A stretch of DNA of 34,995 nucleotides from Verrucomicrobiota bacterium (GTDB taxonomy: Bacteria; Verrucomicrobiota; Verrucomicrobiia; Opitutales; Opitutaceae). A model generated the notes under the pieces. It did not search any database and was not told the DNA's origin. It worked only from the letters and a program-made list of their open reading frames with translations. Numbering within the stretch: the stretch's first letter is position 1; every line of letters begins with the position of its first letter. The position numbers were made by a program, and so were the translations under genes. Positions 32,916 to 34,995 of this stretch are shown piece by piece. Location of the stretch: positions 1 through 34,995 of the forward strand of contig JAUWBD010000029.1 in assembly GCA_030605125.1 (NCBI GenBank). The letters are read 5' to 3'.

Positions 32916-32950
32916 CATTGGTCCTTGGTCATTGGGCATTGGTCATTTCC
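32916..32950 (+). repeat. Heptamer array CATTGGT x5, no gene inside
   Basis: Five 7-bp units in a row: CATTGGT, CCTTGGT, CATTGGG, CATTGGT, CATTTCC. It fills the gap before the ATP-grasp start at 32958. It has the same period and the same CATT core as the arrays around the four-helix-bundle gene at 34472-34960, but with GGT in place of CGT. Confidence 0.85.
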
Positions 32951-32957
32951 CTCCCGC

Positions 32958-34445
32958 ATGCCCGATCTCTTCGCCGCCTACGACACCGACAAATTCTACG
33001 ACGAGATGTTTGCCGCTCCCGGGCGGCCGCGTCCGCATTACGAGCGTTTGCACGAGCGCTTTTGCCAGATGGAGGGCATCTCCGACCTCCTGACCCGCCA
33101 GCGCACCGCCGACCAGACCTTCATCAACCGCGGCGTCACCTTCACCGTCTATTCCGACAACAAGGGCACGGAGAAAATCTTCCCCTTCGACCTGATCCCG
33201 CGGATCATCCCCGCCCACGAATGGGCGCGCCTCGAGGCCGGCCTGCGCCAGCGCATGGAGGCGCTGAATCTCTTCCTCGCCGACATCTACGGCCCGCAAA
33301 AAATCCTCCGCGAGGGCGTGGTCCCGCGCGAGATGGTCGAGACCTCCAAGGCTTTTCGCCCCGAGCTCGTCGGCGTGCCCATCGCCCGCGGCCTCCACGT
33401 CCACATCAACGGCACCGACCTCGTCCGCGACCAGCACGGCGACTACCGCGTGCTCGAGGACAACCTCCGCACACCCTCCGGCGTTTCCTACGTGCTCGAG
33501 GACCGGCAGGTGATGAAGCGCGTTTTCCCCAACCTGCTCCGCGACTACCGCGTGCGTCCGGTCGAGACCTACCCGAGCGACCTCCTCTCGCTCCTCCTCC
33601 ACCTCGCGCCCGCCCACGTGCCCGAGCCCACCGTCGTGCTCCTCACCCCGGGCGTCTATAACAGCGCCTACTTCGAGCACAGTTTCCTCGCCCGCCAGAT
33701 GGGCATCGAGATCGTCGAGGGCGGCGACCTCGTCGTGGAGAACGACCGGGTCTTCATGAAGCGCACCGACGGTCTCGCGCCCGTGCACGTCATCTACCGC
33801 CGCATCGACGACGACTACCTCGACCCTCTCGCCTTCAACCCGAATTCGCTCCTCGGCGTCCCCGGTCTTTTCGAAGCCTACCGCAAGGGCAACGTCGCCC
33901 TCTGCAACCCCATCGGCACCGGCGTCGCCGACGACAAGGCGATGTATCACTTCGTGCCGAAGATGATCCGCTTCTATCTCGGCCAGGACGCGCTCCTGCC
34001 CAATGTGGACACCTACCTCTCCGGCGACGCAAAGGACCGGGCCTACATCCTCGAACACCTCGAGCAACTGGTCGTGAAGTGTGTCGATGAGGCCGGCGGC
34101 TATGGCATGCTCGTGGGCCCGCACAGCACGCGCGCGCAGATCGAGGAGTTTCGCCAAAAAATCGTCGCGCATCCGCGCAAATTCATCGCCCAGCCCACGC
34201 TCGGCCTCTCGCGTTGCCCGGCGCTCTGCGGCGATTCGATCGAAGGCCGCCACATCGACCTGCGCCCCTACATCCTCAACGGCGAGAGCATCAAGATCAT
34301 GCCCGGCGGCCTCACCCGCGTGGCCCTCCGCAAGGGCAGCCTGGTGGTCAACAGCTCCCAAGGCGGCGGTTCCAAGGACACCTGGGTCCTGGCGGCCGAG
34401 GACCAGGAGGCGACGCCGGCGGTGCCCGAGCGGATTATCGTGTAA
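32958..34445 (+). CDS. Circularly permuted ATP-grasp type 2 protein (COG2308 family)
   Basis: A 495-residue protein from ATG 32958. The N-terminal segment ([27 protein letters not shown]) and the blocks [53 protein letters not shown] and LKQLV-like [19 protein letters not shown] are diagnostic of the CP-ATP-grasp family. It is predicted to use ATP for an amide or peptide ligation; the product is not known. In many bacteria it is followed by an alpha-E protein gene and often a transglutaminase gene. That alpha-E gene does begin here at 34979, but only after an inserted four-helix-bundle cassette. The frame is open 11 codons further upstream, into the heptamer array, so the start at 32958 is preferred. 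Confidence 0.94.
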
Positions 34446-34471
34446 GCGGCGCCGTCTCCCCGCCGCCAGGA

Positions 34472-34500
34472 AATGACGAATGACGAATGCCCAATGACGA
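34472..34500 (+). repeat. Left heptamer array of the cassette
   Basis: Units ATGACGA, ATGACGA, ATGCCCA, ATGACGA run in tandem from 34473, then fade into ATGGA ATGA. Three of the four units are identical. The array overlaps the likely start region of the four-helix-bundle gene, where three units equal seven codons (MTNDECP). Confidence 0.88.
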
Positions 34501-34904
34501 ATGGAATGAAAGCTGACGCTTACGACTTGGAGGAGCGCACAGCAGTGTTTGGTGAAACGGTCATCGAACTCTGCCTGGAGCTGCCGACCACGCCCGTTTG
34601 TTCGCCGCTCATTACACAGTTTGTCCGCTCCTCCACGAGCATCGGCGCCAACTACTGTGAAGCCGACGACGCCGAGTCCAAAGCCGACTTTCGTCACAAG
34701 ATCGCGCTTTGCCGAAAAGAGGCGCGGGAAACAAAACACTGGTGCCGCATGCTCGCCAAGGCCTGTAAGGCCGAGTCCACATCGCTGCGCGCGCTCTGGA
34801 AAGAGGCCCACGAGCTCCACCTGATCTTCGCGCGCATCGTTCGCACCACCGACGCCAACTTACGCCGCGAGCGCGCAGCAAAAAAACGCCTCCCTTCCCC
34901 CTAG
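34473..34904 (+). CDS. Four-helix-bundle protein (S23 / 23S rRNA intervening-sequence family)
   Basis: A 143-residue protein from ATG 34473; ATG codons at 34494 and 34506 are in frame, and only the last one leaves out the repeat-encoded leader MTNDECPMTNG. The core is recognisable: LEERTAVFGETVIELCLELP, FVRSSTSIGANYCEADDAES, DFRHKIALCRKEARETKHWC and a final amphipathic helix. The R-S-x-x-S-I-x-x-N-x-x-E motif and the K-E-A-x-E pattern mark the TIGR02436-type family, related to Avd of diversity-generating retroelements. No reverse transcriptase is nearby. The function of stand-alone members is unknown, perhaps nucleic-acid binding. The C-terminus is Lys/Arg-rich. Confidence 0.92.
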   Translation: MTNDECPMTNGMKADAYDLEERTAVFGETVIELCLELPTTPVCSPLITQFVRSSTSIGANYCEADDAESKADFRHKIALCRKEARETKHWCRMLAKACKAESTSLRALWKEAHELHLIFARIVRTTDANLRRERAAKKRLPSP

Positions 34905-34925
34905 CCGCCCCGCCCACCTTCCGCC

Positions 34926-34960
34926 CATTCGTCATTCGACATTAGTCATTCGTCATTACG
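34926..34960 (-). repeat. Right heptamer array of the cassette, inverted
   Basis: Five units with core CATTCGT, the reverse complement of the left array unit. It begins 22 bp after the four-helix-bundle stop codon and ends 18 bp before the alpha-E start codon. It may also fold against the left array in RNA. Confidence 0.88.
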
Positions 34961-34978
34961 TCCGCGCCGCCTCCCGCC

Positions 34979-34995
34979 ATGCTTTCAAGAGTAGC
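34979..34995 (+). CDS. Start of alpha-E domain protein (COG2307), cut by window edge
   Basis: The last 17 bases read ATG CTT TCA AGA GTA GC, giving M-L-S-R-V-A. Alpha-E proteins usually begin MLSRVA, and these genes usually follow the CP-ATP-grasp gene. The call rests on only five full codons and on that gene order. The spacing after the right heptamer array (18 bp) is that of a normal leader. Confidence 0.7.

Follow-up and report, generated by a model that had tools for sequence, protein, structure and literature searches.

A probable transposase-less mobile element: an S23-type gene between inverted heptamer arrays at an operon junction

A gene for a four-helix-bundle protein of the S23 type lies between two inverted arrays of 7-nt units at an operon junction near the end of the window, the whole 34,995-nt stretch of verrucomicrobial DNA that was analysed. 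The locus is probably a small mobile element without a transposase, of the 23S rRNA IVS kind, whose end arrays would be read by a pentamer of the encoded protein, the last step being inferred. We are considerably more confident that the locus is an element and has been mobile. The reading of five cores by a pentamer and a single-stranded intermediate (RNA or ssDNA) are each possible though rather doubtful. Compared at the level of sequence, genomes and plasmids reveal the same architecture across phyla, presence, absence and internal deletion at orthologous sites, and dispersed gene-less arrays. They also reveal one site held by different elements, and near-identical elements in diverged flanks.

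The left terminal array (34472-34503, minus strand) is 32 nt long and is built of AATGACG units, with five AATG/CATT cores separated by 3-nt spacers. The right terminal array (34926-34958, plus strand) has CATTCGT units and is an inverted copy of the left one; the two are 91% complementary over 33 nt, with 420 nt between them. The S23/IVP four-helix-bundle gene (34506-34904, plus strand) was classified by profile search (PF05635, E 4e-12; TIGR02436, E 4e-18). An alternative start at 34473, inside the left array, gives the longest ORF; judging from relatives, 34506 (MKADAYDLEERT) is the likelier start. This is the sole gene between the arms, with no transposase or recombinase inside and no second gene of the kind that accompanies diversity-generating retroelements (DGRs). 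The upstream host gene encodes a circularly permuted ATP-grasp protein (32958-34445, plus strand; PF14403/PF04174). The downstream host gene, alpha-E (34979-34995, plus strand), is represented by its first codons (MLSRV...), 17 bases in all, and is cut by the contig end at 34995; the gene at that place in G013 is PF04168 (G-numbers denote genomes compared and L-numbers loci compared, G000 being the 4.88-Mb source genome). The element therefore lies between ATP-grasp and alpha-E, i.e. outside an rRNA gene. In the RNA fold predicted for 34440-34980 the arms are paired around the gene (z -5.4, with 0/100 shuffles equally good). A consensus scan of the 34,995 bases found the two arms, one gene-less array upstream of the ATP-grasp gene (32916-32947, plus strand) and none else; G013 has an array at the equivalent place. 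The preliminary description, of an S23-type gene between inverted 7-bp arrays that separates ATP-grasp from alpha-E and brings no transposase of its own, is borne out in each of these respects.

ATP-grasp protein matches were obtained in 39/57 related genomes, and 30 loci were analysed with a script that located alpha-E by its N-terminal motif. An intact four-helix-bundle gene with inverted arrays occupies the junction in G000, G013, G002, G005, G003 and G010. G014 has a more degenerate element, and in G012, G031 and G019 the gene is internally deleted or the arms are bare. At 17/30 loci the gene is absent and alpha-E lies 2-104 nt from ATP-grasp (e.g. 52 nt in G008 and 35 nt in G011). The script could not read 3/30 loci, namely G052, G047 (alpha-E seemingly directly next) and G007 (at a contig end). 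The earlier view that the two host genes normally adjoin, and that their synteny is disrupted here, agrees with these 17 loci, and the empty orthologous sites that it anticipated occur in relatives together with filled and boundary-varied ones.

The arm units at this junction vary among genomes (CATTCGT, CATTGGT, AAATCCG/AATGACG and TTACGAT). The ATP-grasp genes of G003 and G005 are 95.2% identical at the nucleotide level and the inserted genes 71.3%; the G008 junction is empty though its ATP-grasp gene is 94.4% identical to that of G003. A tree of seven four-helix-bundle genes gave no resolution, and diagnostic columns were used instead. In the four-helix-bundle protein, 8 amino acid columns join G000 and G003 against the other four while 1 joins G003 and G005. 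In the ATP-grasp gene, 28 diagnostic nucleotide columns group G003 with G005 and 26 group G000 with G013. Because the element and ATP-grasp groupings conflict, different elements have occupied one junction, and judging by these columns two lineages of elements run counter to the species tree there.

A stationary gene was weighed against mobility. S23p would then be a resident RNA- or DNA-binding regulator, with autoregulatory flanking arrays, a regulon of dispersed arrays, arms that co-vary to keep a stem, and gene loss as the source of the variation. The pairing of the arms in the predicted RNA fold agrees with this, as does the operon-like, co-directional placement of the S23 gene among its neighbours. 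Co-variation of the arms is modest: they match on average at 29.4/32 positions within an element and at 26.85 between elements, with between-element values up to 30, in a comparison of five elements that omitted G010 for its short left arm. The conflict between element and host-gene groupings speaks against a stationary gene, as do the seamless empty plasmid sites and the in-frame arrays within ORFs, e.g. DnaE, which lacks an insert at that site in four relatives. Taken together, we find a stationary gene unlikely and retain the mobile element as the preferred explanation.

Filled and empty sites were paired on cyanobacterial plasmids from PLSDB at 90-98% identity. Site 1 is filled in Trichormus variabilis ATCC 29413 and Scytonema NIES-4073 and empty in Microchaete NIES-3275 and others, at 97.5-97.9% identity. 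The empty sequence is GTAATTAA, and filled copies carry GTAATTAA at the right edge of the insert. The left edge reads GTAATAAA, GTAATTAG (Nostoc C052, with a deleted element) or ATAATTAA (Brasilonema, with a short element). We read these edges as a putative target duplication of 7-8 bp. At the remaining plasmid sites a duplication is shorter or unclear and its length is not constant, so that the target duplication for which a check had been suggested is read at site 1 and not clearly beyond it. The left arms of two filled copies of site 1 (L287 and L291) differ in length by exactly 14 nt.

Site 2 is filled in Calothrix brevissima and empty in Aulosira and Tolypothrix at ∼90% identity. Site 3 is filled in Nostoc C052 and N. 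edaphicum and empty in Nostoc C057 at 94.7%, with 44 nt replaced. Site 4 is an operon, a-b-c-d, with element X at the b/c junction in pC052_D and pNsp_a. It is empty, with a 3-nt junction, in L305-L308, four other plasmids of the two strains that have the filled site; this is the seamless empty site that counts against a stationary gene. Another element, distinct in its S23 gene and its arms, sits at c/d in pNsp_c; the other five plasmids in the comparison lack it. The stop and start codons of the host genes are intact around the elements, and gene-less short elements with X-type arms are found at the a-b junction. Site 5 is filled in Aulosira plasmid 2 relative to three related plasmids without the element, with less clear boundaries. 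On two Nostocales plasmids (L295:570-800 and L296:580-830) we observed by eye gene-less short elements that have arms in common, a similar interior and two hairpins; the interior is perhaps a small RNA.

Elements and flanks differ in divergence at some of these sites. The site 4 copies of the S23 gene differ at 1/366 nt; for the operon genes around them identity is lower, 92.5% in b, 91.7% in c and 89.1% in d. The S23 genes of site 3 differ at 1/363 nt and lie between genes that are 82.6 and 94.5% identical. Site 2 has an identical S23 gene (100%), an upstream flank at 99.9% and a downstream flank at 92.2%, and at site 1 the S23 gene (98.9%) and flanks (97.6-97.9%) are alike. Gene conversion or plasmid recombination could be an alternative source of near-identical elements in diverged flanks.

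The ATTCGTCATTCGTCATT pattern with up to 3 mismatches gave 356 matches in the source genome and 1 match for the reversed-pattern control; the array pattern is therefore neither due to chance nor private to the window locus. A 379-kb sample of source-genome contigs, chosen for having pattern matches, contains 32 arrays. Most of these (26/32) are 32-37 nt long, with about five CATT cores. The gene-less array near the window element had been proposed as a solo remnant or an acceptor site; it is one of these many dispersed arrays and nothing singles it out as an acceptor. Most arrays are single. Opposite-strand pairs no more than 200 nt apart number 4, all in the -+ order of the window, and one pair of the other polarity is 1007 nt apart. 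Among the four PF05635 matches in the source genome, CATT arrays occur only at the window gene; of the remaining three, two are flanked by different inverted repeats and the third by none. Dispersal is not confined to this genome: in Anabaena UHCC 0204 the unit of its element gave 133 matches and the control 1.

Array number showed no clear correlation with S23 gene presence in 15 genomes. G002 has perfect arms yet only 8 array matches genome-wide, and G001 has 36 matches and no gene match. G013 is the most array-rich of the 15 same-genus genomes. CG- and GG-type arrays occur at 59:130 in G000, 30:34 in G003, 53:308 in G013 and 3:37 in G005, which agrees only weakly with the resident element.

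Source-genome ORFs with in-frame arrays include DNA polymerase III alpha, ATP-dependent DNA ligase, a 4Fe-4S protein and peptidase U32. Single in-frame arrays were noted in coding genes of G000 at L006, L007 (4Fe-4S protein by Pfam), L009 (a gene which we take to be a kinase from its motifs) and L018 (DNA ligase by Pfam); at these four loci the antisense orientation would introduce TGA stops. The DnaE linker before IRFGLAGIKGVG (L019/L232, G000:C120; L233-L244) is a hot spot of small insertions. Both heptamer arms are present there in G000 and G005, a GC-rich hairpin is common to G000 and G013, other inserts occur in G001, G010, G012 and G014, and G003, G004, G008 and G011 have no insert.

Movement of the arrays by a transposase acting in trans, RAYT/IS200-type Y1 or other, would make them REPIN- or MITE-like units and S23p a passenger. 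Y1_Tnp (RAYT-type) genes are present in 14/15 same-genus genomes, and the gene-less inverted pairs are REPIN-like. The exception, G002 (79% complete), has no Y1 match. From 35 Y1 matches listed, 20 loci were scanned, four of them truncated at one side by the end of a contig, and 0/20 had arrays on both sides. At one of them, L321, a single weak array precedes the open frame by 70 nt, which favours such a transposase slightly; L315 has two arrays, at distances of 439 and 1014 nt past the frame. Five of the 20 (L309 and L324-L327) have inverted ends of type GGGGTCAGGCCG instead; these ends and the Y1 genes are likely a RAYT/REP pair. An unlinked curiosity is L328 (G011:C1:723729-725730), with three tandem Y1 matches of identical E-value, 836 nt apart. 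With both sides considered, a transposase in trans is an improbable explanation.

Retro-mobility, in which the hairpin RNA would be the substrate of a resident reverse transcriptase and S23p an Avd-like accessory, we consider quite unlikely. Avd of DGRs is a four-helix bundle, and bAvd (PF22296) matched 2/3 plasmid S23 proteins tested, weakly and below the curated cut-off. The elements stand in transcribed orientation and the source genome has one RVT_1 match. The spread of RVT_1 fits poorly, being limited to 3/15 same-genus genomes (G000, G005 and G008) with no match in G013 (80% complete), the array-richest. Unlike a DGR, the element itself has no reverse transcriptase. No enzyme for movement was identified among the candidates examined, which were the element's own gene, Y1 and RVT_1.

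The pattern of inverted repeats around S23 genes extends well beyond the genus. An inverted repeat was scored from 200 nt upstream to 160 nt downstream and accepted at a score of at least 13. In the genus, 19/31 PF05635 genes have a flanking inverted repeat (31 examined among 35 listed, orthologues counted apart), compared with 0/588 random control spans. The phylum-wide search gave 20/30 of the loci returned. Named genomes of many phyla gave 54/80, with 2/645 for random spans and 11/252 for other ORFs; a scoring repeat was absent from 26/80 named S23 genes. The score alone is unspecific, since 9/20 Y1 genes also reach 13, their ends being of a kind other than heptamer arrays. The S23 arms stand apart as tandem arrays whose unit sequence changes from element to element. 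The preliminary description had looked to other family members for arrays, and they are present, mostly of other units. S23/IVP matches were found in 140/194 genomes of the phylum sample, and one weak partial match was found among 50,697 phage records.

The period of the arms is mainly seven. Autocorrelation averages 0.533 at lag 7, with 0.521 at lag 14 and 0.395 at lag 8; the control values are 0.27 at lag 7 and 0.25-0.30 at all lags in control windows. The 131 periodic arm segments (control positions 21/333) have period 7 in 101, period 8 in 28 and period 9 in 2. The period-7 arms have a median of 4.7 units with a long tail, and 42/101 fall in the 4.5-unit bin, equivalent to five cores. AG occurs in the unit of 45/47 upstream arms of the named set, with 29 expected from shuffled units and a maximum of 37 in 500 shuffles; the window units have no AG, and the core is therefore not shared by all elements. 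By eye, other S23 genes of the genus (L001 and L002 in G000; L065-L067) have arm periods of 6, 8 or 9-10 (CTCGTT, GTCGAGGA, AGCTAGTAG). Orientation was dropped as evidence for an element, with element and host co-directional in 58/59 cases and ordinary ORFs in 39/43, a barely lower proportion.

Ordinary slippage-born microsatellites, with S23 genes caught between them by chance or array recombination, are extremely improbable: the whole-unit difference between the arms of L287 and L291 implies that slippage or unequal exchange acts, but the narrow array length and the common -+ orientation of all four close pairs led us to reject random slippage as their origin, and inverted arrays of unrelated units recur around one gene family across phyla.

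The S23 gene had been described as a single cargo gene. It is probably the element's own protein, because arrays of diverse units recur around the S23 family but 0/20 RAYT-type genes have such a pair. S23p of Xanthomonas is described as a homopentamer in PMC4990558. Five chains are present in each of the PDB entries 2gsc and 2rld. By analogy with the way TRAP reads repeats, each subunit of a pentameric S23p ring might take up one core of an arm. The target could be an RNA or single-stranded DNA hairpin made by the arms, and S23p with host enzymes may promote copying into gene junctions. In a transcript the arms would form a stem around the gene that might be cut by RNase III, as in IVSs.

A broader proposal, which could equally well prove right or wrong, is that S23/IVP genes throughout bacteria are mostly members of one widespread class of transposase-less elements, with a pentamer reading end arrays of five units at 7-nt spacing. 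The 23S IVSs would be its rRNA-resident form and the scattered heptamers of cyanobacteria and others its gene-less form. Unit and protein would co-evolve, and insertion would favour gene junctions, with a homing-like return to the same one. The architecture of about five cores at a 7-nt period, the filled and empty plasmid sites and the pentamer make the function of S23p and the origin and function of IVSs testable. If true, the proposal would provide a source for dispersed bacterial heptamer repeats and an example of elements that move without a recognised nuclease of their own. The pattern itself is real and widespread and points to a class of mobile elements, related to IVSs, that has had little recognition; how such elements move and whether five cores are read are matters of hypothesis.

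Among known systems, TRAP is an 11-subunit RNA-binding ring that reads regularly spaced short cores; its fold is unrelated to that of S23p, it has 11 subunits and it has no mobility. Transposase-bearing insertion sequences differ in that the present element encodes a single S23 gene and no transposase or recombinase. REPIN/RAYT systems consist of short inverted pairs, scattered through the genome, that are related to the ends flanking a single Y1 transposase gene. The elements described here are alike in having scattered short inverted pairs (4 pairs among the 32 arrays) related to the ends of a single gene. They are unlike in that the gene encodes an S23 four-helix bundle and not a Y1 transposase, the ends are heptamer arrays, and Y1 genes here have other ends where these were seen. 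Cyanobacterial STRRs are dispersed tandem heptamers, and the arrays of the source genome and of Anabaena UHCC 0204 resemble them in this respect. TAACTGA heptamers are present in a number of lineages, to which horizontal transfer may have brought them, and no mechanism is evident (PMC4679880); a search of that text gave no occurrence of 'four helix', 'S23', '23S' or 'IVP', and it makes no link to S23 genes.

The closest relative is the S23p-encoding 23S rRNA IVS, and the earlier statement that no element of such structure had been described must be amended accordingly. The Coxiella IVS is 428 nt long, with an S23p ORF, 28-bp terminal inverted repeats and, before the S23p start codon, tandem heptamers (GACAGAT) whose number varies by strain; according to PMC4990558, S23p proteins have no known function, the origin and function of IVSs are unclear, and the hypotheses cited include leftovers of transposition and a mobile element whose ORF would serve mobility. 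The window element has the S23/IVP ORF and the terminal inverted repeats, with a predicted stem, and is located outside rRNA; a k-mer screen with 23S motifs gave a hit at 0/299 loci. The S23/IVP gene, a similar size, terminal inverted repeats, heptamers and a suspected mobile origin are common to both. Elements of the window type differ from IVSs in lying at mRNA or operon junctions, in having multi-unit arrays on both sides and in having dispersed gene-less arrays. Nothing tying heptamer arrays to S23 genes outside rRNA came up among the open-access papers searched. IVSs, one of them with heptamers, were thus already known, and the array-flanked S23 pattern outside rRNA, as read from the sequences compared here, would be the new part.
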